DNA from: an uncultured Lachnospiraceae bacterium
Lineage (GTDB): Bacteria; Bacillota; Clostridia; Lachnospirales; Lachnospiraceae
Length of the DNA stretch: 38,030 bases
Assembly: GCA_947626985.1 (NCBI GenBank)
Contig: CANQUG010000034.1
Location: 1 to 38,030 of the forward strand
Reading direction: 5' to 3'
Under the pieces are notes generated by a model, which saw only the letters and a list, made by a program, of their open reading frames with translations, was not told the DNA's origin and made no database searches. The translations under genes and the position numbers were made by a program. Shown here one piece after another: positions 15,010-38,028 of the stretch; position 1 is the first letter of the stretch; every line of letters starts with the position of its first letter.

Positions 15010-16632
15010 TCAGTTCAGATAACTATGTACCTTCCCCGCGATACTCTGAATTCCCCTGACGCCATAATACGCAGAGCACCTGGAGAATACGCAGAGAACA
15101 TAAGTGGTTTTGGGACCGTAGACAATGGCTATGTCATGCTGATAGCTGCTCGTTTCTCCGGTTTTGTTGGCCACTTTTGTTCCGGAAGGGAGCCCTGCCG
15201 GAATCTTCACTCTTCTTGTCTGACGAAGAAGAAGGTTCAGCATCTCGGTGGAATAAGCGGAAGAAACACAGGTACCTCTGTAGATCCGCTCCAGAAGAAC
15301 GCCGCAGTCTTTAGCAGAACTCTTATTCGTCCCTCCGTCGCTGGCGTAAGCGGAAGACGCCGGATGAAGGGTCGTATGGCAGGCTGTGCTGGTATAGCCG
15401 TTCTTCGTCAGATACTGATTCACCACAGCCGCTCCGGATACGAAATTTCTGCCGGGGCTGTTGTAACGCACCAGTTCATTATACGCATCGTTGCTGCTCA
15501 CCGTAATCATGGAGGTCAGAAGGCTTTTGACGGTCGGACTGTAGGAAAGCTTCTTCTGACTGATCTGATCAAAGGTGGACGCCATGACAAAGGCCTTGAT
15601 AGTGCTGGCTGGATACATGGGAGAATCGTTGATATTCACCACTGTTCCGGTTTTCAGATCCTTTACATAGACAGACCAGGTGCCCGGATAACCGGCAATC
15701 ATCTGGGTCAGCTGTTTTTTCAGAGGACTGAGAGCCATCTCCTCTCTGGCGCATTTCCTTCCGTCGCAGTCCACATAGGACCCGTCGGGAACCTGCATGC
15801 TCCTGGCGATGGTTCCGTCCCCCAGCAGATAATATCCGTCCACCCAACGGTTCACATACTTCTGGCCCTGAGAGGAAATGTAATAGTTCTTCCCTCCCAC
15901 AGTGACCCAGCCGGCTTCCTGACTCAGGCCTCCGTTGGGAGCGCCGAAATAATAGGTTCCTTTAAAGGAACGGCCGTTCACTTTTCCGGTAAAATCATGA
16001 AAATCCGCTCTGGTGCAGAGCTTTCCGAATCTGTTGAAGTAATAATACCCGGCCGGAAAATATCTGCCGGAAACCCGCTGAGGCTGAAGATAACGAATCT
16101 GCTCCGTTCCCGAAATATCACAGAGCTTACCGCAGGCGCCAATATAAAAATAGCCGCTGAACAGCATCCCCCGGCACTGAAAACCGGAAAGATAATGCAG
16201 TCCATAATCTTTAAAAACAAAACGCCCGATCTTCGTGGTATAGTAATATCCGTGAAATTCCACGCCCTTCGCCTTCGCGCTCCGGATGAAACGGACCCCT
16301 TCCTCCTGAAGGAGCACTCCATTCTCATCAAAAAAATAAAAGCCCGTGAAGATTCCATGAACGGCAGGAATCTTCAGATACTGAGGCCCTGTCAGCGGCG
16401 CGCCCTTTTTATTATACAGACAAAATTTCCCGCCGGCATACTCCAGATATTTTCCGCTGCCGTTGATAAAATGAATAATTTCTGCGGCAGGCGTCTTCCC
16501 TGCCGCAGAAACCGTTGCCACGGGCAAAAATCTGCCGATTATACGGGTACAGAACTCTGCTCCGGCCATCCCTCCTGAAAACAGAAGAAACAACAGGACC
16601 GCCGGAAGCAAATTTCTTTTCAGCCTCTTCAC
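15010..16632 (-). CDS. Secreted serine hydrolase, beta-lactamase-like, with repeat domain
   Basis: Exported penicillin-recognising-type serine hydrolase of 540 residues. A signal peptide or anchor lies at 5-25. Residues about 50-295 are Tyr/Gly/Phe-rich and show cell-wall-binding-like repeats (GFYFFDENG, GYFYIGACGK, GYYYFNRFGK, GTYYFG, NYYISSQGQKY). The C-terminal half (about 300-540) has the three active-site motifs of the class A beta-lactamase-like fold: S343-T-I-K346, S379-S-N381 and K490-T-G492. No class A omega-loop glutamate motif (ExxLN) is apparent, so a peptidoglycan-related role or other hydrolase activity is as likely as beta-lactamase activity. The start overlaps the stop of the zinc-ribbon gene by 4 nt (ATGA), so the two are coupled. 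Confidence 0.85.
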   Translation of the reverse strand: MKRLKRNLLPAVLLFLLFSGGMAGAEFCTRIIGRFLPVATVSAAGKTPAAEIIHFINGSGKYLEYAGGKFCLYNKKGAPLTGPQYLKIPAVHGIFTGFYFFDENGVLLQEEGVRFIRSAKAKGVEFHGYYYTTKIGRFVFKDYGLHYLSGFQCRGMLFSGYFYIGACGKLCDISGTEQIRYLQPQRVSGRYFPAGYYYFNRFGKLCTRADFHDFTGKVNGRSFKGTYYFGAPNGGLSQEAGWVTVGGKNYYISSQGQKYVNRWVDGYYLLGDGTIARSMQVPDGSYVDCDGRKCAREEMALSPLKKQLTQMIAGYPGTWSVYVKDLKTGTVVNINDSPMYPASTIKAFVMASTFDQISQKKLSYSPTVKSLLTSMITVSSNDAYNELVRYNSPGRNFVSGAAVVNQYLTKNGYTSTACHTTLHPASSAYASDGGTNKSSAKDCGVLLERIYRGTCVSSAYSTEMLNLLLRQTRRVKIPAGLPSGTKVANKTGETSSYQHDIAIVYGPKTTYVLCVFSRCSAYYGVRGIQSIAGKVHSYLN

Positions 16633-20643: not shown

Positions 20644-21612
20644 TTATGTTTCCCGCATTTCCCTGCTCCAGTAGCCCTTATTCATGGACAGCGCCCGCGC
20701 CATCCCCCGGGGCATCCGGCGGAAATTCTTTCCCGCCAGATATCCGGCGTATTTGAAGGCGCTCTGGGCAAAAAGAACAGGAAGGAGCCCCGCATATCCA
20801 TGATTCACCAGGTAAGACGCCGTATTTTTCACCAGCCGGATTCCTTCGCCCTCCGAGGGGATCCCCTGAAAAACCTCCGGATGCTGAACCTGCGATACTC
20901 CCACGTCAAAATTTCTGAAAAACTGCTGCAGACAGGAATAATTGTGAGAATGGATCACCCGGGCGTCCGCCGCATAGGCAATTCCGTAGCCTGCCCTGAT
21001 CATTCCGGCGGCAAAGACCATATCCTCATTAAAAATGGCAGAGTCCGCAAACCCTCCCAGTTCCTCATATACACGCCTGACATATGCGGCGCATACGTTG
21101 GAACAGAAATAGGTTTTCACCCCGCAGCGCGGAAGATCCTCCCTCCTTTTTACGGAGGACTCCGAAGGATAATTAAAGTCTCTGGTAAAACGCTCTATCA
21201 CGCCGCAGTCCCTGCGGGGAATCTGCCTTGCGTAGGCCGCCGCCACATTCTTCTCCTCCAGAATGGGACGGATCAGCTTTTCCAGAAGATACCGGTCCTC
21301 CGGAAGGGCGTCCTGCGTCATATACACCAGAATATCCCCTTCACACATTTTGGCCGCGGCAGCTCTGGTGGCTCCGTGATCAAACTCCGCCTTTCTCAGA
21401 TGATGCACCTCCAGAAGGGGAAATTCCTCCTCCCACTCAGGATTCCAGAATTCCTCCTCCGTGTTCATAACTACGATCTTTTCCACGGGAAGGCTCTGCT
21501 TTTCCAGACGTTTCAGAATCGTCGGGAATTCCTCTGCCGGACGATATGTGGGAATGATCACATCCACCGTTTTCCTGTTTGACATCATGTCTGAAGCTGC
21601 ACCCATCTGCAC
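20644..21612 (-). CDS. GT2 glycosyltransferase, rhamnosyltransferase-like
   Basis: Cytoplasmic nucleotide-sugar glycosyltransferase with a GT-A fold, 322 residues. The nucleotide-binding start is VDVIIPTYRP (about 17-26); the acidic metal-binding position is MTQDALPEDR near residue 100; the acceptor-side motif is FNEDMVFAAG. The HGATRAAAA segment and overall pattern resemble rhamnosyltransferases of the GT2 family. The start is a GTG at 21612; an ATG two codons later is equally possible, with AGGAAAGGA upstream of both. It follows the LCP gene with a 119-nt gap that holds a stem-loop. Substrate is inferred only. Confidence 0.83.
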   Translation of the reverse strand: MQMGAASDMMSNRKTVDVIIPTYRPAEEFPTILKRLEKQSLPVEKIVVMNTEEEFWNPEWEEEFPLLEVHHLRKAEFDHGATRAAAAKMCEGDILVYMTQDALPEDRYLLEKLIRPILEEKNVAAAYARQIPRRDCGVIERFTRDFNYPSESSVKRREDLPRCGVKTYFCSNVCAAYVRRVYEELGGFADSAIFNEDMVFAAGMIRAGYGIAYAADARVIHSHNYSCLQQFFRNFDVGVSQVQHPEVFQGIPSEGEGIRLVKNTASYLVNHGYAGLLPVLFAQSAFKYAGYLAGKNFRRMPRGMARALSMNKGYWSREMRET

Positions 21613-21731: not shown

Positions 21732-23123
21732 TCACAGATACCCGTCGTCAAATCCGCCGGAATCTCCGCCGCCGTCTTCATAGCCCCCGGAATCTCCCTC
21801 ATCGTAGCCGCTGTAATCTCCATCGTCGTAGCTGCCGTCTCCGTAATCTCCCTCATCGTAGTCTCCGTCGTCGTAGCTGCCGTCTCCGTAATCTCCGTCG
21901 CTGTAGCCTCCGTCTCCGTAATCTCCGCCGTCGTAATCATAATTCCCATACCCTTCATCCTCATAGCCTCCGTAATCCTCAGGCTCCTGATATGTATATT
22001 CGGCACTCTCCTCGGGCGTCTGCGTGATAGAGAAATCCCCGCCTCCTTCGGAGACCATCTCCGTGATCCTGTCGCTGTTGAACTGCACCTGAGCAGAGGG
22101 CACATAATCCGTCTTTCCGTACAGGAATTCATGGAGACGGGATACATTGCTGCTCAGGGAGGTGGGAGCGATGATACTGGTTTTTGTCCCTCCGGGATAA
22201 ATATCCGTCATCGAATACTCAAAGGGGAAACCTGTGGTGCTTCCCAGGCGGTAACCGATCACCGCCGGGATCAGCTTCAGAATTTCCGTCTGATTCAGAG
22301 AAGTCTGCACCATGGTGAAGACTTCATCCATAATATTGAAAATGGTAGTGAGACCCGCTGTTTTCGCCTTGTCCACCAGCATGGAGATCACTCTTCTCTG
22401 CCGTTCGGTCCGCCCCATATCCAGGTTGGCCGTATAACGGATCCGGCAGTAGGAGGTAACCTGCACGCCGTTCAGATGATATGTCCCGATAATCTCCTCC
22501 AGGCCTTCCGGAGTCTGGGGCTCCTCCGGAGGCAGCTCTACGGGAGTGTAGTCCTTCCCGGTCTCTTTGGACACCTCGATACAGAAATTGTTCATATGCA
22601 CGATTTCCGCGTAGGAAAGAGGAATGTCCAGACCGCCCAGCAGATCCACCACGGTAGACAGAGCGTTGAAATCAACGGTCACATACTCCGTAATATCCAG
22701 GTCCAGGTTCGTGTTCAGCATGGAAATGGCTCTCTCGGGACCGCCGGCGGCGTACGCGGAGTTGGCCTTGGAATAGTTGCCTCCTCCCACATCCAGCACC
22801 GTGTCCCTGTAAACGGAAACCAGCTTCACTTCCCCTGTATCGTTGTTGATGCTGGCGACGATGATGGTATCGCTGTTCTCACCGCTGAGTTCCACGTTCT
22901 TCAGCCTTTTGTCGATCCCGAACAGGGCGTAGGTGGTGTAGCCGGTAAGCTCGGATTCCTTCACCTCCGGATTGACGGCGATCTCCTCCCCCTGGATCAC
23001 GGGCTGTTCGATGTGCTCCAGTCTGGAAGTGAGCTGACCGTAAAGATAGAGTCCTCCGATAAAAAAAAGCAGTATCAGAATTTCCAAAATAAACAGGAGT
23101 CTCTTTTTTCCTGATCTTCCCAT
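21732..23123 (-). CDS. LytR-CpsA-Psr (LCP) family ligase with acidic Tyr-rich tail
   Basis: Transfers lipid-linked polymers to peptidoglycan on the outer face of the membrane. It has 463 residues. A membrane anchor lies at 9-28. The LCP domain (about 62-255) has the conserved NSDTIIVASINN stretch, catalytic-type arginines at 106 (SVYRDT) and in GRTERQRR (237-244), and the DFNALSTVVDLLGGLD segment. From about 378 to the end the protein is a low-complexity extracellular tail built of Asp, Gly, Tyr, Ser and Glu in DYGDGSYDDG-like units. It lies 15 nt after the sugar phosphotransferase gene, so they share an operon. This position fits attachment of the polymer made by the locus. Confidence 0.92.
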   Translation of the reverse strand: MGRSGKKRLLFILEILILLFFIGGLYLYGQLTSRLEHIEQPVIQGEEIAVNPEVKESELTGYTTYALFGIDKRLKNVELSGENSDTIIVASINNDTGEVKLVSVYRDTVLDVGGGNYSKANSAYAAGGPERAISMLNTNLDLDITEYVTVDFNALSTVVDLLGGLDIPLSYAEIVHMNNFCIEVSKETGKDYTPVELPPEEPQTPEGLEEIIGTYHLNGVQVTSYCRIRYTANLDMGRTERQRRVISMLVDKAKTAGLTTIFNIMDEVFTMVQTSLNQTEILKLIPAVIGYRLGSTTGFPFEYSMTDIYPGGTKTSIIAPTSLSSNVSRLHEFLYGKTDYVPSAQVQFNSDRITEMVSEGGGDFSITQTPEESAEYTYQEPEDYGGYEDEGYGNYDYDGGDYGDGGYSDGDYGDGSYDDGDYDEGDYGDGSYDDGDYSGYDEGDSGGYEDGGGDSGGFDDGYL

Positions 23124-23138: not shown

Positions 23139-24542
23139 TCAGTACGCATTTTTATTGATAAAGCCTTTGAAAAACGTGAGCAGAAGAATCTTAATATCAA
23201 ATCCCACAGACCAGTTCTCAATGTAATACAGATCGCACTCTATCCTTTTTCGGATGGAGGTGTCCCCCCGGTATCCGTTCACCTGGGCCCACCCGGTAAG
23301 ACCGGGACGCACCTGGTGCTTCACCATGTACCTGGGAATCTCCTCCTGAAATTTTTCCACAAAAAAAGGTCGCTCCGGTCTGGGGCCTACAAGGCTCATA
23401 TTCCCCTTTAATATGTTGAACAGCTGCGGAAGCTCGTCGATGCTTGTCCGCCGCATGAATTTTCCGATTCCTGTGACCCTGGGATCATTTTTTACCGTCC
23501 ACGCCTTTTTTTCCGCCGCCTCCGGCTGCACCTCCATGGAACGGAACTTGTACATCCAGAAGGTCCTGTTGTGCAGTCCCACGCGCTCCTGCTTATAAAT
23601 CAGGGGCCCCGGTGAGGTCAGCCTGATCAGAACGCACATCAGAAGCATCACCGGCGAGGACACGATGATGGCCAGGATGGAGCCCACGATATCCATGCTC
23701 CGCTTCACCAGGGCATTGAAGGTATTCGTCAGGGGAACATACCGGATATTGATCACCGGCAGTCCCAGAATATCCTCCGTGTAGGGCTTCGTGGGAATGA
23801 TCTTATTATAATCGGGAATGAATTTCGTATGCACTCCCGACTTCTCGCACATGGCTACAATTTCTTCCAGTCTGTCGTATTCCCCCAGTCCCAGGGTAAT
23901 GGCAATCTCGTCCAGGCGGTTCGCCGGAAGGATGACCGTCAGGTTCGCGATCCTGCCGATCACCTTCACACTTTTGTACATGGTGCCCGCCGGCACATGA
24001 TCATCCAGGATTCCCCGGATCACGTATCCCCACTGGGGATTCATCAGGATCCGGTCCACATACTCCTCCGCAGCCCTGCTGTATCCCACAAGGAGGATCT
24101 GTTTCTGATTCAGTCCTCTTCTGCGCATATCGCGCATGAGGTAATAGATCAGCATTCTGGCGCCCCAGGTCAGACAAATGTTGATGATATAGAAAAAAAA
24201 CATCATCTGACGGGAGAAATCCCCCTCGTTCAGATAGTAGAAGCCGAACATGATCAGAAGGAATCCCAAGGTGTTGGCCTTCACGATATTGGACAGCACC
24301 AGCCGCCTTCCCTGCATCCGCATGGGCTCATACAGCGCAAAGGCCTGATATAAAAGCAGATATCCCGGCACCACGAATACCAGGATAAACATATACTGCT
24401 GAAAGCTTCTGGCCCTCACCGCGTCCGCGGAAAAAGGCCCCACAAATTTCAGATACCAGGATAATATATACGAAACCACGATCACCGTGAAATCAATCAG
24501 CACATGGAGACGAGTGAAGTTTCTCTGATTATCTTTAATCAA
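23139..24542 (-). CDS. Polyprenyl-phosphate sugar-1-phosphate transferase (WcaJ/WbaP type)
   Basis: Starts polymer synthesis by moving a sugar-1-phosphate onto undecaprenyl phosphate in the membrane. It has 467 residues, typical for the large form. Membrane helices occupy about 10-140, a nucleotide-binding-like domain about 145-255, and a further hydrophobic segment about 275-300. The bacterial sugar transferase core (about 270-467) contains KRSMDIVGS, YKQERVG, MYKFRSM, SIDELPQLFNIL and LVGPRPE. The start is UUG, with AGGTGG upstream and no better ATG. It is first in an operon with the LCP gene, from a promoter about 60 nt upstream. The sugar cannot be fixed from sequence; glucose and galactose are common in the family. 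Confidence 0.93.
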   Translation of the reverse strand: MIKDNQRNFTRLHVLIDFTVIVVSYILSWYLKFVGPFSADAVRARSFQQYMFILVFVVPGYLLLYQAFALYEPMRMQGRRLVLSNIVKANTLGFLLIMFGFYYLNEGDFSRQMMFFFYIINICLTWGARMLIYYLMRDMRRRGLNQKQILLVGYSRAAEEYVDRILMNPQWGYVIRGILDDHVPAGTMYKSVKVIGRIANLTVILPANRLDEIAITLGLGEYDRLEEIVAMCEKSGVHTKFIPDYNKIIPTKPYTEDILGLPVINIRYVPLTNTFNALVKRSMDIVGSILAIIVSSPVMLLMCVLIRLTSPGPLIYKQERVGLHNRTFWMYKFRSMEVQPEAAEKKAWTVKNDPRVTGIGKFMRRTSIDELPQLFNILKGNMSLVGPRPERPFFVEKFQEEIPRYMVKHQVRPGLTGWAQVNGYRGDTSIRKRIECDLYYIENWSVGFDIKILLLTFFKGFINKNAY

Positions 24543-24691: not shown

Positions 24692-25642
24692 TTAAGACCG
24701 GCGGAAGATATTCACCCACAATTCCCACTGAATCCTCCCGTACTGAGGCAGGTGAGCGAAGGAAAAGGGAACCTTCTTTTCCTTCCGGCTGATCTGGAAG
24801 CCGTTTTTTATTCCGGCGGCGTACTCCTTCCCCATTCCCTTCCAGGCAAAAAACAGGAATTTTACGGCAAATCCCGCCGCCAGCAGAGGCAGATTCAGAA
24901 GGATCTGAGGCAGAGGCATGTTTTTATAAATGAGATACACACTGTTTCTGGAGGAATACCGCGTCTTGAAATGATTGTACCGGGAACCGGTCGTGCCGCT
25001 TCCCACATGGTACACCACGGCGGCGGGAGCATACCAGTTCTCATAGCCGCAGATCCTGGCCCTGTAGCCCACGTCCAGATCCTCCAGATAGGCGAAATGC
25101 TCCTCATCGAAGCCGCCCAGTCTTACCAGCAGCTTTCTCCGGTAAATGGCGGCCCCGGCACAGGAAGAAAAAATCCGTTCCTCCTTCTCGTATGCGCGGA
25201 TGCTTTTTCCCTTTCCTCTGGCGTAGGCCCAGCCCAGAGCACAGTAGCCGTCCCCCGCGCCGTCCAGCCTGTTCCTGTCATAAAACTGAACCATCCGGGC
25301 GGAACAGGAGAACGCCTTTTTATGACGGCGGACAGCCAGCACCATCTCTTTGACAAAGTCAGGGTCCGCCTCCGTGTCGTTGTTCAGGAGCAGCACAAAG
25401 GGAGCCCGCGACAGACGGACCCCTTCATTCACAGCACGGGCAAAGCCCAGATTTTCCGGCAGGCGCACCAGGCGGACCCGGGGACAGCGCGCCTCCGCAA
25501 AAGCGCAGCTTTCGTCGGAGGAGCCATTATCCACCACGATGATCTCAAAATTCCGGAAGGTCTGCTTTTCCAGACTGGCAAGAACCCCCTTCAGATATGC
25601 CGCGCCGTTGTAATTGGGAATAATGACCGATACCTCAAGCAT
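24692..25642 (-). CDS. GT2 glycosyltransferase, single domain
   Basis: Cytoplasmic GT-A glycosyltransferase of 316 residues. Motifs: VSVIIPNYNG (4-13), VVDNGSSD (36-43), metal-binding LLLNNDTEAD (84-93), and LEDLDVGYR in the acceptor half. A hydrophobic stretch near the C-terminus (about 243-270) may touch the membrane. It overlaps the upstream two-domain GT gene by 8 nt, so they form one operon. The NNDT signature is common in rhamnosyl- and related transferases of the GT2 family. Exact donor unknown. Confidence 0.88.
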   Translation of the reverse strand: MLEVSVIIPNYNGAAYLKGVLASLEKQTFRNFEIIVVDNGSSDESCAFAEARCPRVRLVRLPENLGFARAVNEGVRLSRAPFVLLLNNDTEADPDFVKEMVLAVRRHKKAFSCSARMVQFYDRNRLDGAGDGYCALGWAYARGKGKSIRAYEKEERIFSSCAGAAIYRRKLLVRLGGFDEEHFAYLEDLDVGYRARICGYENWYAPAAVVYHVGSGTTGSRYNHFKTRYSSRNSVYLIYKNMPLPQILLNLPLLAAGFAVKFLFFAWKGMGKEYAAGIKNGFQISRKEKKVPFSFAHLPQYGRIQWELWVNIFRRS

Positions 25643-27898: not shown

Positions 27899-29149
27899 AT
27901 GAACATCAGAAAATTTACCGCCGGACTTCTGGCCATCGGACTGTGCGCCACGCTGCTGGCCCGGACGCCGGTAAGAGCGGAAGAAGGGGGCGCTCCTCAG
28001 GAGGAAAGCTCCTCCATCACCACCAACGCCATCCCCGGCTGGCCCCAGGGGCCGGACATTTCGTCTACCGCCGCAGTAGTCATGGAAACCTCCACCGACA
28101 CCATTCTCTACGGCAAAAATATGGATCATCCCCTCTATCCCGCCGCCGCGGTAAAGATCATGACCATACTTCTCGCGCTGGAGAACAGCGCCCTGGAGGA
28201 TCAGGTTGTGATCACGGCCACCGGAGTCTCGGGAGCCACAGACGGCGGCGCCAATATCGCAGCCCAGCTGGATGAGGAATTTACCATGGAGCAGTGCCTG
28301 TACGCCGTCATGATGGCCTCCGCCAATGATATCGCCATGCAGGTTGCGGAACATGTGGGCGGCTCTGTGGAAGCATTTGTGGAAATGATGAACACCCGGG
28401 CCAAAGAGCTTGGCTGTACCGGCTCCGTATTCACCAATCCCACAGGACTTCCCGACGAAAATCAGCATATCACCGCTCATGACATGGCGCTCATCATGGA
28501 GGCGGCCATAACGAACGATACCTTCCGCACCATCGCCTCCGCTTCCTCATATACCATTCCCGCCACCAATGTTTCCGGCGGCGAGCGTGTCCTGACCAAC
28601 AATTTTTCCATGATGAACCCGGCCGGCTCCGTATATTACGAAGGATGCCTGGGCGGCAAGGAAGGAGCCACCAGCGCCTCGGGAAGCACGCTGGTCTGTG
28701 CTGCGGAACGCAACGGAATGCAGCTGGTTGCGGTGGTTCTCCAGAATGTCAACGATCAGATCAACGCAGAGACCATCACCCTTCTGGACTATGCCTTTGA
28801 AAATTTTCAGATGTTCTCCGCGGGAGCGGATGATTTCAATCTTCTCTCCGGCGGAACGGTAGTCATTCCCGCCGGCGCCGGTGAGGACAGCCTGACTGCC
28901 GAGGACACGGAAACGGAGGGAGAGATCAGCCGGACCTATCTCTTCGGCGGAACTCCCGTGGGAACCGCCAGGCTGATGGTGACGGAAGCCCAGGACACCT
29001 CCGGACTGGAGGAGGGAGAAAAAAACATGGCCGCCAGCGCCACCTTCTCCAGCAGCAAATCCATGATTCCCTACTACGTCATCGGCTGCGCCGGAATCTT
29101 TCTGATGATCCTTCTCATCAGAATGCTGGTGAAGACCGCGAAATCCTGA
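27899..29149 (+). CDS. DacF/PBP5-like protein without catalytic serine
   Basis: Related to D-alanyl-D-alanine carboxypeptidases that trim peptidoglycan stem peptides outside the membrane. It has 416 residues: signal peptide 1-27, penicillin-binding core about 50-300, a linker domain, and a C-terminal membrane helix about 390-411. The SxxK motif, usually PASTTK, reads PAAAVK (81-86), so Ala83 stands where the catalytic Ser should be; Lys86 is kept. SxN is intact (S141-A-N143). KTG reads KEG (254-256). The codons at 28140-28157 are clear GCC GCC GCG, so no frame problem explains this. It is the only plus-strand gene in the polysaccharide locus. Enzyme activity is unlikely; a binding or scaffold role is inferred. 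Confidence 0.88.
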   Translation: MNIRKFTAGLLAIGLCATLLARTPVRAEEGGAPQEESSSITTNAIPGWPQGPDISSTAAVVMETSTDTILYGKNMDHPLYPAAAVKIMTILLALENSALEDQVVITATGVSGATDGGANIAAQLDEEFTMEQCLYAVMMASANDIAMQVAEHVGGSVEAFVEMMNTRAKELGCTGSVFTNPTGLPDENQHITAHDMALIMEAAITNDTFRTIASASSYTIPATNVSGGERVLTNNFSMMNPAGSVYYEGCLGGKEGATSASGSTLVCAAERNGMQLVAVVLQNVNDQINAETITLLDYAFENFQMFSAGADDFNLLSGGTVVIPAGAGEDSLTAEDTETEGEISRTYLFGGTPVGTARLMVTEAQDTSGLEEGEKNMAASATFSSSKSMIPYYVIGCAGIFLMILLIRMLVKTAKS

Positions 29150-29257: not shown

Positions 29258-30100
29258 TCACAGAATTTCCTTCAGATACCGTTCCAGAGCATCCTGCCAG
29301 GAGGGGAGACGCCGGAAGCCCATCTCCTCCAGCTTGTCCTTGCTCATACGGCTGTTGTGAGGACGCTTCGCTCTGGAAGGATACTGGTCGCTGGTAACGG
29401 GCAGGACCTTCACGGATTTTCCCGCCGCCCGGAAAATCTCCCCGGCAAACTCATACCAGGAGCAGATTCCCTCGTTGGTCGCGTGGTAACGTCCGTATTT
29501 GTCCGTCTCCAGCATATCCACCAGAAGCCTGGCCAGATCGTACGTGTAAGTGGGAGATCCCACCTGATCCGCCACCACGGTGAGAGTATCATGGGTTTCG
29601 CTGAGCTTCAGCATGGTTTTGATGAAGTTCTTTCCGTTCACGCCGAAAACCCAGGAAATCCGGACAATATAATACTTGTCCAGATATTTCTCCACAGCCA
29701 GTTCCCCCTCGTACTTGGTCTGACCGTAAGCATTCAGGGGATGGCGCTCATCGTCAGGCTCCCAAGGCCGCTCTCCCTCCCCATCGAACACGTAATCCGT
29801 GCTGATGTAGATCATGGGCAGATCCAGTTCCCGGCACATCCGGGCAATATTCTCCGTTCCAAGCGCATTCACCCTCCGGCAGAGTTCAAGCTGATCCTCC
29901 GCCGCATCCACCGCCGTCCAGGCGGCGCAGTGCACCACCCTGTCCGCGCCGGCCTCCCGCATGACACGCTCCACCGCATCCCGGTCCGTGATGTCCATCT
30001 CCTGCACATCCACACCTACGCCCTCGTATCCTCTCTTCGCCAGTTCATCCATCACGTCGTGGCCCAGCTGGCCTCTCACTCCTGTTACTAAAACTCTCAT
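29258..30100 (-). CDS. rfbD: dTDP-4-dehydrorhamnose reductase
   Basis: Last step of dTDP-L-rhamnose synthesis, NAD(P)H-dependent, cytoplasmic. It has 280 residues, normal for RmlD. The Rossmann motif GVRGQLG is at 7-13, the catalytic triad region has STD (100-102) and YxxxK (Tyr125, Lys129), and HPLNAYGQTKYEGE is typical. AGGAGG precedes the ATG. The rfbA, rfbB and rfbC genes are not in the window. Its place among GT2 genes implies the polymer contains rhamnose. Confidence 0.95.
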   Translation of the reverse strand: MRVLVTGVRGQLGHDVMDELAKRGYEGVGVDVQEMDITDRDAVERVMREAGADRVVHCAAWTAVDAAEDQLELCRRVNALGTENIARMCRELDLPMIYISTDYVFDGEGERPWEPDDERHPLNAYGQTKYEGELAVEKYLDKYYIVRISWVFGVNGKNFIKTMLKLSETHDTLTVVADQVGSPTYTYDLARLLVDMLETDKYGRYHATNEGICSWYEFAGEIFRAAGKSVKVLPVTSDQYPSRAKRPHNSRMSKDKLEEMGFRRLPSWQDALERYLKEIL

Positions 30101-32766: not shown

Positions 32767-35700
32767 TTAATCCCTCCAGGAATAATCCGTGCGTGTGAGG
32801 CTCAGATTGGGGTTATAGCAGGGATCCCCGGACTTCAGCAGTTCTGCGTGGCGCTGCTGAAATCTGCGGATCTCTCCCTGGAAGCGGCCGGCCTTCTGCA
32901 GCGTGTCCTCCGGCCCTCTGGTTCTGGATTCGTAATGGTACAGAAGCGCTTCCGGCACGAATACCACCTTCTGCCCCAGCTCTCCGGCCCGCAGACAGAA
33001 ATCCACATCATTCAGAGCTACGGCATAGTTCTCGTCCAGACCGCCAAGCTTTTCGTAAATGGAGCGTTTGATCATCATACAGGCTCCTGTGACGGCGCTG
33101 ACGTCCATGGCGGTGATCAGTCTCCGGAGATATCCCGGTTCCTCCCGGTCGCTCCCTGTGAGCACATGCCCGGCGAAGCCGCCCATGCCGATCACAATGC
33201 CGGCGTGCTGCACCTTATCATCCGGATAAAGAAGCTTCGCCCCCGCGACGGCCGTACCCTCTCTCTGACAATAGCCCAGCATGCGCTCCATCCAGTCGGG
33301 AGCGATCACCTCCGTGTCGTTGTTGAGCAGAAGGAGATAGTCTCCTGCCGCCCGCGACGCGCCGAAATTATTCACTGCGGAGTAATTGAATTCCCCCGGA
33401 TACCGGAGAGCCCTCACCCGGGAATCCTGCTTCTGCAGCTCCTCATACAGCCGGAACGTTTCTTCCTTCTCGCTGTTGTTCTCCAGGATCAGAAGCTCAA
33501 AATTCTGCCAGCTGCTTTTTTCCAGCACGGAACCGATGCAGCGCTTCAGATCCTCCCCATGATCTTTATTGGGAATCAGTATGGAAATCAAAGGATTCCC
33601 GGCGATTTCATAAGTGGTGCGGTAGACCACCGTAACGCCCGTATAGGTCACTCTGGCAGCCACCGACGTGCGCTCATAGTGCTCCTGCAGAGCTCTCAGT
33701 CCCGCCTGAACCGCATAATGCTTGTTCTCGCTGCTGCCGGCGGTGGACCCGCCGTGGACTCTCCAGTGATACAGCACTCTGGGAATATGCCGGATCTGCC
33801 CGGTCTGTTCTACACAGCGGAGCAGGAAATCGTAATCCTGGGAGCCGTCAAATTCCTTCCTCATAAATCCTGCTTTTTCCTGCAGCTCCTTCCTCACTAC
33901 CAGAAGATGGCAGATATAATTCATGGAGAGAAGGAGGTCCGGATTATAATCCGGCTTAAAATGGGGCGCCAGAGGAGTTCCTGCGGCGTCCGCCAGGTCC
34001 TCGTCGGAGTAGAGAAGCTCCGTCTCCGGATGCTCCCGGAGGGTTTTCGCCGCCTGATACAGAGCGTCCTCCGTGAGCATATCATCGTGATCCGCAAACA
34101 CCAGATGGGTTCCCCGGGCCATCCCTATGGCGGCGTTGGTGTTGCCGGAGATTCCCCTGTTCTTCTTCAGGCGAAGATAACGGATTCTTTTTTCTTTTCC
34201 ATAATTCTTCCGGATATATTTCTCAATGGTGTCCTTTTCGCTTCCGTCGGCCAGACAAAGCTCCCAGTTTTCATAGCTCTGGGCTGCCACGGAATCCAGA
34301 AAAGCCTTCAGATATTTTACAGGCGTATTATAAAGGGGCGTTACCACTGAGAAGAAGGGCGCCGGCGAAAAATGCTCCTCCCTCTGGCGCTTCAGTTCCT
34401 CGGGGGAGGGCCTGTGCGTCCTCTCATAGTATGCGTAGCTTCCCGGGGCAGGAGGCTGCTCTCCCCGGAGCCGCCGCAGGGAACTCCTCACTCCGGCGCT
34501 CTTTGTCACCAGGGTACGGAGATATTCTCTGCCCTTTCCGCCCTCCGGATCCTTCACCCACTCCTTCGCTTTGTTCCATTCCTGCTTTACGTCCTGTTTC
34601 AGATTTTTCGTCAGGTCCTGGCGGATCTTTTCCAGACCCATCAGCTGTTCTGCCAGCTCCCTGTCCGCAGGATGAAGCTTCATGGAGACAAGAAGAGCTT
34701 TCGCCCCATGGGGAACAGGGATTTCCGAGATGGAAGGGTCCTCTCTGGCAATATACACCCAGTTTCCCCGGACACAGCCTTCCTGAATTACGGCTTTTTT
34801 CAGGTTCACCGGCTCTTTGTCAAAGGACAGTCTTCCGATTTCCGCCCCGCAGGGCAGATCTCCCGGATCAAGACGTAGGGAAAGGCAGTCCGGGGGAAGC
34901 TTTACCTTCACGGAAACGCTCCCGTCCCTGAAGGGGAAGGACTGGGAATCCTCCTCCCGATAGCCCGCTCCGCGGTTAAAAAACACCTGGAGACACGGGG
35001 TCATTTCCTTCTTCATCTCCAGAACTCCCGGTGAAATGGAGGCATACATGTCCCGAACAGCGCAGTGTCCCCGGGTGATATAATTCTGGAAATGCCGTTC
35101 CATGCGGGCGAAAACTTCCCTTTCGGAGAGGGAGATTCCCATAGGCCCGTAAAATTCCTCCTCGTCCAGGCACCCCCGCAGGGCGCTGGTCTCCAGATAA
35201 TAATGAATCACACGGTACAGAACATATTTGCAGGGCACCGGAAAATCGAAGGTCCACTCATAATCCAGCACCTGGGGAACCTCGTTCAGAATCAGATTGG
35301 AGCAGACCAGATCGATATTGGTAACCGGAGCGCAGGTCTGCTCCCCCGAAAGCGCCGCGTCGCCGAATACATTCCGGAACTCGTCCGTGACGGTAAAAGG
35401 CTGCTGGTCATGGATCGCCCTGATCTGACGGAGATAGGCCAGCAGTCTTCGGGACGCATCCTCCCGTTCTCCCTTCCCGATCAGCTCGTCCAGCGCCTCC
35501 TCCAGAGTCCGGCCCTCCAGGTACTCCAGCCGGACGCCGTCCTCCTCTCCGGTGCAGACATTGCATAAAAAAGGAGCGCTCTCATACTCTTTATTCAGCA
35601 GCTCCTGCCATTTTAAAAGGCTGAGAATGTGTTCCCTGCCTTCCGGATGGAGGGCTGTTTTTTTCACATACCGCTGTCCGTCTCTCTCCAAAATGTCCGT

Positions 35701-36747
35701 GCGGATGGAAAATGCTTTCGCTCTCTCGTTGGAATATTTTGAAAAAATGATCTGTCCGGCTTCTTCTTTTCGGGGGCGGTCCTCTGCGTCTTTTTCCGGA
35801 GGAAACGCCTCCGGAACCGGCATTTTCTCAGCCGCCTCCGCCACTACAAGGAAGGAATTGGAAAATTCCCGGAACATTCCCGTGTCCGCCATGCTGTCCA
35901 GGGCCTTCGCCTCGTCGAAAAGCGCCATTCTGGGCCGGTCGAAATTCAGGACATTTCCCTTAAAGTCGCCCTTCTTCGGCAGATAACTGTCGGAGTAGAG
36001 CACCATGGGGAATTTATAGTCCGGACAGGGATAATAAAATGCGGTGCGGAAATTCCCGGCACGTTCCAGAATCTTCGCAAGCTCTCCTCTGGAAAAGGTG
36101 CGCACGCCCGAAGGGGAGGGATATCCCTGAATTCCGTCAAAATAGAGACCGGTGTGATCCTCCGCGCACCCCGCCCAGTACTTCATACCCAGACGGTTTT
36201 CTATGGCGATCACGATCTTGCCCCCAGGGGAGAGATGGCTGGAAATCCTCCGGATCATCTCCTCGTAGGGCTTTTCCGTGCCGATATATCCCTGAGAATA
36301 TTCAAAAACGCCGATCAGCGTAATATAATCGTAGGTTTCCGGAAGATGCTGTTCGATATCCCGAAAGTTTCCCACCAGGATCCGGATATTGTCACGGTCC
36401 CTGTTGCGGTAAGCATTGATGGTGCTGCGCATTTTCGAGAGATCGATGCAGGTGACCTGACCGGCCTTCCGGGCCAGAGCGCCGGTGACGGCTCCGCAGC
36501 CGGAGCCGATCTCCAGGACCCTGTCTCTCTTCGTGATGGGAAGCCACTCCAGAATGTTCTGACGGATATGAGAAAAATGGTAGAGTACCGGCCAGCTGTT
36601 CTTTTCCCGGATGACCCGGTTCAGTTCCTCCTCCCGGCAGCTCTTCGCGATTCTGAGGAGCTCCTCCTCCACGGGGCCGTCGCTGTAAAGGTCCCGGCCG
36701 GGATAGTACGTATAGTCCAGAGTAATATTTCCAATCTTTTCTTCCAT
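32767..36747 (-). CDS. Methyltransferase / kinase-like / double GT2 fusion protein
   Basis: Multidomain cytoplasmic protein of 1326 residues. Domain 1 (about 50-300) is a SAM-dependent methyltransferase with motif I VLEIGSGCG (77-85). Domain 2 (about 335-560) is kinase-like: Lys362 or Lys363 (YVKKTAL), a loop N477-I-D479-x4-N484 matching HxDxxxxN with His changed to Asn, and D495-Y-E497 in the place of the metal-binding DFG-like motif. A charged helix (about 693-735) follows. GT domain 1 (about 797-1045) has DHDD (886-889) and SDED; GT domain 2 (about 1052-1310) has LNNDTE (1141-1146) and NDVD (1246-1249). AAAGGAG precedes the ATG. It sits 24 nt after the Wzt-type gene. The first two domains parallel WbdD, the O-antigen chain terminator; this role is inferred. 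Confidence 0.88.
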   Translation of the reverse strand: MEEKIGNITLDYTYYPGRDLYSDGPVEEELLRIAKSCREEELNRVIREKNSWPVLYHFSHIRQNILEWLPITKRDRVLEIGSGCGAVTGALARKAGQVTCIDLSKMRSTINAYRNRDRDNIRILVGNFRDIEQHLPETYDYITLIGVFEYSQGYIGTEKPYEEMIRRISSHLSPGGKIVIAIENRLGMKYWAGCAEDHTGLYFDGIQGYPSPSGVRTFSRGELAKILERAGNFRTAFYYPCPDYKFPMVLYSDSYLPKKGDFKGNVLNFDRPRMALFDEAKALDSMADTGMFREFSNSFLVVAEAAEKMPVPEAFPPEKDAEDRPRKEEAGQIIFSKYSNERAKAFSIRTDILERDGQRYVKKTALHPEGREHILSLLKWQELLNKEYESAPFLCNVCTGEEDGVRLEYLEGRTLEEALDELIGKGEREDASRRLLAYLRQIRAIHDQQPFTVTDEFRNVFGDAALSGEQTCAPVTNIDLVCSNLILNEVPQVLDYEWTFDFPVPCKYVLYRVIHYYLETSALRGCLDEEEFYGPMGISLSEREVFARMERHFQNYITRGHCAVRDMYASISPGVLEMKKEMTPCLQVFFNRGAGYREEDSQSFPFRDGSVSVKVKLPPDCLSLRLDPGDLPCGAEIGRLSFDKEPVNLKKAVIQEGCVRGNWVYIAREDPSISEIPVPHGAKALLVSMKLHPADRELAEQLMGLEKIRQDLTKNLKQDVKQEWNKAKEWVKDPEGGKGREYLRTLVTKSAGVRSSLRRLRGEQPPAPGSYAYYERTHRPSPEELKRQREEHFSPAPFFSVVTPLYNTPVKYLKAFLDSVAAQSYENWELCLADGSEKDTIEKYIRKNYGKEKRIRYLRLKKNRGISGNTNAAIGMARGTHLVFADHDDMLTEDALYQAAKTLREHPETELLYSDEDLADAAGTPLAPHFKPDYNPDLLLSMNYICHLLVVRKELQEKAGFMRKEFDGSQDYDFLLRCVEQTGQIRHIPRVLYHWRVHGGSTAGSSENKHYAVQAGLRALQEHYERTSVAARVTYTGVTVVYRTTYEIAGNPLISILIPNKDHGEDLKRCIGSVLEKSSWQNFELLILENNSEKEETFRLYEELQKQDSRVRALRYPGEFNYSAVNNFGASRAAGDYLLLLNNDTEVIAPDWMERMLGYCQREGTAVAGAKLLYPDDKVQHAGIVIGMGGFAGHVLTGSDREEPGYLRRLITAMDVSAVTGACMMIKRSIYEKLGGLDENYAVALNDVDFCLRAGELGQKVVFVPEALLYHYESRTRGPEDTLQKAGRFQGEIRRFQQRHAELLKSGDPCYNPNLSLTRTDYSWRD

Positions 36748-36771: not shown

Positions 36772-38028
36772 TCAGACCGGTTCCTCCACCGTCACTTCCG
36801 AGTTCATATCATAAAATCCCACCGTATTTTTCGTGGAAATCACGGTGACGCCGCAGGCGTCATACAGCCGGTGGAACACGCAGAATTCTCCCTTCTGATA
36901 TCCGGTACACCCGAAGGAAAGAAGATACTCTCCCCCCTGAAGGTCCATCCTCTGGCGGAAGGTCACCACGCACTCCCGCCCCGCCTCCGGGTGAGAGATC
37001 TGCACCTTCTCGTACATGGTATTGGTACCTGTGATCTCCGTTCCCTGGACGTTTTTGAAGGTATATGCCATAATGGGCTCCTGAATGGATTCGTGAAAAT
37101 GGATCCTCATTTTTATCTGAAACAGGCTCCCCTTGTCGATGGTGTTGGTGGGAGTTCCCCTGTCGTCCAGCACGGCAAAGGATAGAATCTCCGCCTGTTT
37201 TTCACCGTACTCAAGGGCGTTGGGATTCACACGGAAGCCCTCCTGCCGCTCCTCCTCCCGTGCTGCGTCCGTCTTCTGCTTCACCGGATCCTGACGCACC
37301 AGGAGCTGCTTGTACATGTCCACCATGGCCTTGGGTTCTCCCACGTCCAGAAGCTGCCCTTTGTTCAGAAGCACTACCCGGTCGCAGTACTTCGCGATGC
37401 TGCCCAGGTCATGGCTCACGAAGAGGATGGTTTTTCCCTGATTTTTAAATTCTTCAAATTTATGATAGCATTTGGCCTGAAAGAACACGTCTCCCACGGA
37501 GAGCGCTTCATCCACAATGAGAATTTCCGGATCGATATTGATGGCCACCGCAAAGGCCAGCCGGACAAACATGCCGCTGGAGTACATTTTTACCGGCTGG
37601 TTCACGAAGTCTCCGATGTCCGCGAAGGACAGGATATCCTCCAGCCTCTGGTCGATCTCCTCTTTGGAAAAGCCGATCATGGTTCCGTTGAGGTAGATGT
37701 TCTCCAGGCCGGTATATTCCATGTTAAAGCCCGCTCCCAGCTCCAGGAGCGCGGAAATCCGGCCGTCCACCTTCACCTCGCCCGAGGTGGGATAGAGAAT
37801 GCCGGTGATGATCTTCAGGATGGTGGATTTTCCGGAGCCGTTGGTTCCGATGATGCCCACACACTCTCCTTCCCTGACGTCAAAGCTGATATCCGAGAGG
37901 GCGTAGTGCTCTCTGTGCCGCTTCTTCCTGGTCAGTCCCAGGGATTCTCTCAGGCGGTCGGAGGGTTTGTCATAAAGCTTGTACATTTTCGATAAATGCT
38001 GAATCTGTATGACCTTTTTCTTCTCCAC
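36772..38028 (-). CDS. Wzt-type polysaccharide ABC exporter ATPase, 5' end possibly cut
   Basis: ATPase that powers export of a lipid-linked polysaccharide, working with a permease (Wzm/TagG type) not in the window. 418 residues are visible. Walker A GTNGSGKST is at 61-69, the signature YSSGM at 149-153, Walker B ILIVDE at 169-174 and the switch His at 206. The extra C-terminal region (about 275-418) is predicted beta-rich and matches the Wzt C-terminal carbohydrate-binding type, which TagH-like short ATPases lack. The reading frame starts with GTG two bases from the window end, so the true start may lie just outside. The next gene, 24 nt away, encodes the methyltransferase/kinase-like GT fusion. 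Confidence 0.92.
   Translation of the reverse strand: MEKKKVIQIQHLSKMYKLYDKPSDRLRESLGLTRKKRHREHYALSDISFDVREGECVGIIGTNGSGKSTILKIITGILYPTSGEVKVDGRISALLELGAGFNMEYTGLENIYLNGTMIGFSKEEIDQRLEDILSFADIGDFVNQPVKMYSSGMFVRLAFAVAINIDPEILIVDEALSVGDVFFQAKCYHKFEEFKNQGKTILFVSHDLGSIAKYCDRVVLLNKGQLLDVGEPKAMVDMYKQLLVRQDPVKQKTDAAREEERQEGFRVNPNALEYGEKQAEILSFAVLDDRGTPTNTIDKGSLFQIKMRIHFHESIQEPIMAYTFKNVQGTEITGTNTMYEKVQISHPEAGRECVVTFRQRMDLQGGEYLLSFGCTGYQKGEFCVFHRLYDACGVTVISTKNTVGFYDMNSEVTVEEPV

Follow-up and report, generated by a model that had tools for sequence, protein, structure and literature searches.

A candidate polymer terminator joined to its polymerase in a single chain encoded by a Lachnospiraceae bacterium

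Could one bacterial protein both build a surface polysaccharide and cap it? The question is raised by a 1326-residue open reading frame (ORF) on the minus strand (32767-36747) of a 38,030-nucleotide stretch of DNA from an uncultured Lachnospiraceae bacterium (GenBank assembly GCA_947626985.1, contig CANQUG010000034.1; the whole stretch is hereafter called the window). An original prediction, made from the letters of the DNA, had placed a methyltransferase, a kinase-like domain and two family 2 glycosyltransferase (GT2) domains in this single chain, had likened it to WbdD of Escherichia coli, and had suggested that capping and polymerising might both reside in it. Our analysis agrees on the domains, and a terminator joined to a polymerase is the most likely reading of the layout. 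We consider it likely that the ORF is a Gram-positive enzyme of the same kind as ORF6 of Klebsiella O7, in which a methyl-phosphate cap would stop chain growth and the capped chain would then be exported.

Modules of the chain

The frame starts with an ATG, 24 bases after the stop of wzt, and six bases separate this ATG from the end of a ribosome-binding site (AAAGGAG). The modules follow one another as methyltransferase, kinase-fold domain, small domain, short helix, GT2 and GT2 (Table 1). The original prediction had named the enzymatic domains correctly; it had missed the small domain (~572-705), the helix that follows it and the wzm/wzt context, and had given no strand. In the N-terminal part, Pfam methyltransferase families match within about residues 60-231 (best 8.6e-12), with the S-adenosylmethionine (SAM) motif VLEIGSGCG at residues 77-85. 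At the other end, the best Pfam stretches of the two GT2 modules are 800-908 (PF00535, 2e-44) and 1054-1281 (PF13641, 1.6e-18), and the acidic motifs of both are intact, as had been predicted.

Is the domain between them a kinase? No kinase family was among the 22 Pfam families that matched the ORF at E up to 1, which were methyltransferases, GT2 and a few weak, unrelated families, nor was there any among the best 25 of 60 NCBIfam families. The structure predicted for residues 327-566 is that of an aminoglycoside-phosphotransferase (APH)-type kinase, with high confidence (predicted local distance difference test, pLDDT, 96.5), and this model matches APH and AmiN in fold comparison. Thus, the outcome by which the original prediction would have been refuted, a fold unrelated to kinases for residues 335-560, is not what the model shows. 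Furthermore, K362/K363, D479, N484 and D495, like the SAM motif, lie at the residues that the prediction had named.

Conservation was read from two alignments, one of full N-terminal homologues (53 of 67 plus the window, 54 rows) and a wider one of the kinase part (69 of 91 rows plus the window, 70 rows); near-duplicates or short rows picked by eye, together with the window's own locus (L001), were left out of both. In the former, Y21, Y56, G81, G83 and Y150 of the methyltransferase are invariant, as are D479, N484, D495 and E497 of the kinase, while K363 is nearly so. The same four kinase residues are also invariant in the 70-row set, and by these alignments the conservation of the kinase residues exceeds chance.

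It is conceivable that the kinase-fold domain is inactive or structural and that the methyltransferase methylates the terminal sugar directly, as in WsaE and in E. coli O8. For WsaE, the published account gives a 2-O-methyl cap and does not name a kinase (PMC2943079), and the WbdD of O8 is described as having no kinase domain (PMC3482155). On the other hand, a dead kinase would hardly keep D479, N484, D495 and E497 invariant in 54 and in 70 rows, and the kinase profile matches relatives of the O7-type kinase, as described below. We therefore regard an inactive domain as rather unlikely.

Relation to ORF6 of Klebsiella O7

The original prediction knew of no described system with this layout. 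Such a system does exist: in ORF6 of Klebsiella O7 (ORF6-O7), Kelly et al. (2024, PMC11231755) describe, in order, a methyltransferase, a kinase, an immunoglobulin (Ig)-like carbohydrate-binding module (CBM), a coiled coil and two GT2 modules (DXDD, NXD). According to the same account, the kinase is a 223-residue domain without annotation; its model comes closest to AmiN, and the authors call it quite different from the kinase of WbdD. The terminal rhamnose was shown to be phosphorylated and partially methylated at O3, activity was lost in D441A, and the GT2 part together with a partner was demonstrated to polymerise (PMC11231755). A partial fusion is also known in WsaE (PMC2943079).

The ORF can be linked to ORF6-O7 through two relatives. 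When its N-terminal 596 residues were compared with plasmids by tblastn, two records were returned, in both cases for the methyltransferase part only. One is a Pseudomonas asturiensis plasmid protein (WP_024686765.1; L117), a single 1457-amino-acid chain directly after wzm and wzt; it has the same modules as the ORF and differs in being Gram-negative, annotated only as a glycosyltransferase and endowed with a longer coil-like span. The other is a 649-amino-acid Citrobacter braakii protein (L120), whose gene likewise follows wzm and wzt and belongs to a cluster that includes rml genes. A search of plasmids with the Pseudomonas protein brought only itself and the Citrobacter protein, not ORF6-O7, and blastn with it in E. 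coli genomes gave no match. An E. coli locus (L118) was considered as a whole-protein relative and rejected: its 809-amino-acid ORF holds only the small domain and GT2-GT2, and the N-terminal query had no match there.

The Pseudomonas protein carries Y28, Y66, G91, G93, E112 and Y158 at numbers identical to those of ORF6-O7, and its D443 stands where ORF6-O7 has D441, two residues apart in number. In the ORF, the aligned residues are Y21, Y56, G81, G83, D102 and Y150, and D479 is aligned to D443. Of the SAM residues of ORF6-O7 mapped in this way, all are identical in the ORF except the one at D102. The 70-row kinase profile matched the two relatives with Prob 95.9 and E 6.3e-9 (score 61.9, 195 columns), and 60 column shuffles gave scores of at most 20.9. 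Beyond the kinase, hhalign aligned the small domain (572-705) with the Pseudomonas protein (Prob 60), L118 (Prob 95) and L119 (Prob 91) over 58-62 columns each; the score against the Pseudomonas protein was 29.9, compared with 15.4 for the best of 30 shuffles of its segment. This domain occurs also in other GT2-GT2 proteins (L118, L119) and may correspond to the CBM-like domain of ORF6-O7.

Several observations weigh against an assignment to the ORF6-O7 kind. The ORF6-O7 sequence is absent from the collections searched, and the link goes via the Pseudomonas and Citrobacter proteins, the two sequences on which the kinase profile match depends. E112 of ORF6-O7 and of the Pseudomonas protein is replaced by Asp in the ORF, and the Citrobacter protein has Glu at the position of D495. 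Among the 82 loci compared (the best 80 of 205 relatives plus these two), BLAST detects the kinase in 80, and the two misses are precisely the Pseudomonas and Citrobacter loci. Pfam APH is matched by only 2 of 70 family members, weakly (best 0.0082), and the match of the CBM counterpart to the Pseudomonas protein is weak as well (59 columns). Finally, the coil of the ORF is about 32 residues long, against a span of about 137 residues in the Pseudomonas protein (673-809, three adjoining stretches), by a crude heptad score that also marks globular helices. The coil sets chain length in the studied Klebsiella and E. coli systems; since it is short here by the crude score, the ruler part of the comparison is uncertain.

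Distribution of the fusion and its gene neighbourhood

The nearest named relatives belong to Blautia, a genus of the Lachnospiraceae, and by these relatives the host is of Gram-positive type, as had been supposed. How common is the protein in this family? A methyltransferase-kinase profile matched 296 of 299 family genomes at 1e-3 (own genome included), many of them weakly, at the level of general methyltransferases; by hand count, 112 of the 299 had a match below 1e-100. In a sample of the class, the kinase profile was found at 1e-3 in 16 of 245 genomes, own included. Among the 80 loci of relatives, the methyltransferase stands alone in 24, shares a chain with the kinase in 51 and with both kinase and GT2 modules in five (L047, L051, L052, L058 and L067). 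Lachnospiraceae commonly carry this family, in most cases divided over separate proteins, and the full fusion is rare. None of the titles and abstract starts listed (with few subscription papers covered) describes this family in Lachnospiraceae. Kelly et al. aligned orthologues from cyanobacteria and from alpha- and gammaproteobacteria and named further homologues in Gluconacetobacter and Methanoculleus; the terms Gram-positive, Firmicutes and Clostridi- are absent from the main text of that paper (PMC11231755).

A methyltransferase tree of 83 rows (the 80 loci plus the window, L117 and L120, these three labelled by hand) was built by a quick method, and support is weak for 34 of its 80 inner branches. 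In it, the window falls next to ten Blautia-type rows of the split form (SH-aLRT 92), and the full fusion requires at least five changes, a number as low in 7 of 500 label shuffles. Because of these two results, the full fusion is likely to be recent and recurrent on the tree, and its retention since a Gram-negative ancestor was rejected. At the 24 junctions of the split loci, the stop either overlaps an apparent start (ATG, or GTG in L115) or is followed by one within a few codons, which is an ordinary coupled arrangement; readthrough of the stop codon between methyltransferase and kinase was rejected, as an apparent start is present at every one of the 24 stops.

Could the ORF be a product of an assembly or sequencing error that fused three genes? 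In the ten nearest Blautia-type rows the methyltransferase gene is indeed separate, and kinase and GT2-GT2 lie in separate frames in all ten. A single indel does not explain the 26-residue linker at the junction, the point at which one frame ends and another begins in the nearest relatives, and the same full fusion occurs in 5 of 80 genome-contig loci, which makes an artefact highly improbable.

Some genomes of the same genus contain very long open frames, which were not counted as extra fusions, the kinase of several lying in another frame by coordinate arithmetic. In the relatives L096 (9925-15531), L068, L073, L075 and L083, the kinase stands at the head of very long frames (1409-1869 amino acids). 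Of these, L096 alone has GT2 similarity by BLAST, and the C-terminal parts of the other four are unlike that of the window.

Table 1. The ORF, its modules and the neighbouring genes of the glycan cluster in the window
Feature	Position	Strand	Basis or remark
Whole ORF, methyltransferase to second GT2	32767..36747	-	1326 aa; AAAGGAG before ATG
Class I methyltransferase, residues 1-305	35833..36747	-	Pfam; alignment
Charged, Pro-rich linker, 26 residues (306-331)	35755..35832	-	nearest relatives: stop and new start there
Kinase-fold domain, residues 327-566 (K363, D479, N484, D495, E497)	35050..35769	-	predicted model
Small domain within 572-705	34633..35034	-	hhalign to L117, L118, L119
Short coil-like helix, about 694-725	34573..34668	-	crude, unspecific heptad score
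First GT2 module, about 795-1045, DHDD at 886-889	33613..34365	-	Pfam; motif
Second GT2 module, about 1050-1326, NND at 1142-1144	32770..33600	-	Pfam; motif
wzt, ABC ATPase with C-terminal carbohydrate-binding domain	36772..38028	-	Wzt_C 3.8e-42
Second GT2-GT2 protein, 812 aa	30223..32661	-	Pfam
rmlD, dTDP-4-dehydrorhamnose reductase	29258..30100	-	RmlD_sub_bind 3.1e-104
Third GT2-GT2 protein, 647 aa	25635..27578	-	Pfam
Single-module GT2	24692..25642	-	Pfam
Initiating sugar-phosphate transferase	23139..24542	-	Bac_transf 1.7e-71
LytR-CpsA-Psr (LCP) protein, probable polymer-to-peptidoglycan attachment	21732..23123	-	6.7e-30
GT2, possibly adapter rhamnosyltransferase	20644..21612	-	PF00535 2.8e-11

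The cluster continues on a second contig (C55), whose first 77 bases are identical to the last 77 bases of the window. Its minus strand carries wzm (ABC2_membrane), rmlC (dTDP_sugar_isom), rmlA (TIGR01207 over cut-off) and an rmlB-like gene (Pfam GDP_Man_Dehyd/Epimerase; name assigned by eye). Taken together, the genes of the window and of C55 look like a complete cluster for a rhamnose polymer that is exported by an ABC transporter and probably attached to peptidoglycan. Because this cluster combines the rhamnose pathway, wzm/wzt and glycosyltransferases with an LCP protein, a methyl-phosphate-capped, rhamnose-containing wall polymer appears to be the best reading of its product.

Of the 82 loci, 81 contain Wzt_C, 80 the Wzt ATPase and 76 wzm; the contigs of L101, L103 and L098 are cut, and no match to wzm was obtained in L058, L067 and L094. 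Wzt_C lies directly upstream in 79 loci (rows read by eye), with GT2-GT2 in between in L057 and L082. Within the stretches that the flank allowed, an LCP protein was seen in only 7 of the 82 loci and the initiating transferase in 15, so wall attachment is suggested by the window more than by its relatives.

Might the methyltransferase-kinase act elsewhere than at the chain end, on internal sugars, a side group or a lipid-linked starter? Phosphate groups within or along the chain are frequent in Gram-positive wall polymers. Against such targets stands Wzt_C, present in nearly all of the loci, since in studied systems the cap at the chain end is recognised by the C-terminal domain of Wzt (PMC9445017). 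Moreover, the fusion to GT2 puts the methyltransferase-kinase at the growing end, and ORF6-O7 works at the chain end (PMC11231755). We regard another target as quite improbable.

Other features were noted in passing. The LCP protein has a long C-terminal low-complexity tail rich in Asp, Gly and Tyr. A D-Ala-D-Ala carboxypeptidase (Peptidase_S11; window 27899-29149, + strand) lies on the opposite strand within the glycan cluster, and a probable second one, identified by eye, lies between rmlA and the rmlB-like gene of C55 (L152 2870-4306). At 15010-16632 of the window (minus strand), a protein that combines a beta-lactamase fold (PF13354) with a choline-binding-type repeat (PF19085) is probably wall-bound. 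At about 139-330 of L152 (C55, between wzm and wzt) lies a repeated element of up to about 200 bases, whose 33-base inverted ends are 91% complementary and which looks like a miniature inverted-repeat transposable element (MITE). The genome has 32 other sites that match it over 111-205 bases at 80-90% identity, together with two weaker matches (37 rows, including three self-matches), and one copy is at 2384-2573 of the window. Beside the C55 copy, downstream of wzm, lies a 68-base direct repeat in two copies with 85% identity (L152 341-476).

Proposed function and comparison with known systems

How might the chain work? Using dTDP-rhamnose, the C-terminal GT2 modules would lengthen a lipid-carried chain that contains rhamnose. 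The kinase module would phosphorylate the sugar at the non-reducing end, and this phosphate would then be methylated by the methyltransferase module, upon which growth would stop. The C-terminal domain of Wzt would recognise the capped chain, Wzm/Wzt would export it, and the LCP protein would probably join the polymer to peptidoglycan.

On a wider view, a large part of the Gram-positive gut Lachnospiraceae might produce wall polymers that contain rhamnose and depend for length and export on a methyl-phosphate cap read by Wzt, an O-antigen-style process for which no example in these bacteria was seen among the paper listings, with the modules shuffled among one to three chains and the window as one of several independent full fusions; we hold the evidence for this picture to be evenly balanced. 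O-antigen-style capping may be widespread in Gram-positive gut commensals. As the layout was already known, the worth of the analysis lies in extending a proven terminator chemistry to a large Gram-positive gut family, and in connecting the family's unannotated kinase domain with an enzyme whose activity has been demonstrated. Should the cap prove real, gut commensals would carry wall polysaccharides of measured length with a chemically distinct end, which has relevance to host sensing of rhamnose polymers. An immunostimulatory rhamnose polymer of the same bacterial family is the glucorhamnan of R. gnavus (PMC12413058).

Which known system, then, does the ORF resemble most? The likeness to WbdD, on which the original prediction was built, holds for the logic of capping: WbdD of E. 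coli O9a, which unites a methyltransferase and a kinase, is likewise the terminator of an ABC-transporter pathway, and the common Lachnospiraceae form, with methyltransferase-kinase separate from GT2-GT2, resembles the WbdD layout. It probably does not extend to closest kinship. WbdD is a chain apart from the WbdA polymerase, with a kinase described as similar to eukaryotic protein kinases (PMC3482155), whereas the ORF has GT2 modules in the same frame and a kinase modelled as APH/AmiN-type, as in ORF6-O7; on these grounds WbdD was rejected as the closest relative and is a more distant analogue than ORF6-O7. WbdD was also absent among the 50 fold matches listed and among the PDB sequence matches listed (13, 60 of 76 and 60 of 67), an absence that proves nothing.

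Among the titles and abstract starts listed, WsaE of Geobacillus stearothermophilus was the one Gram-positive case that came up for a methyltransferase-kinase terminator, the other cases being Gram-negative. WsaE is a methyltransferase fused to two rhamnosyltransferases (PMC2943079, PMC3898925). By description, it shares with the ORF a Gram-positive host, a methyltransferase with two glycosyltransferase modules and Wzm/Wzt export, and it differs in its 2-O-methyl cap and S-layer glycan (PMC2943079); the ORF departs from its layout by the kinase-fold domain.

Common to the ORF and ORF6-O7 are the methyltransferase, the APH/AmiN-type kinase, two GT2 modules and the wzm/wzt and rml neighbours; the CBM-like domain and the coil may be shared as well. 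ORF6-O7, on the other hand, serves a Gram-negative lipopolysaccharide O antigen whose repeat contains ribofuranose, and has a ribofuranosyltransferase as its partner, whereas the ORF stands in a Gram-positive setting with an LCP protein, two extra GT2-GT2 proteins and a coil that is short by a crude score.

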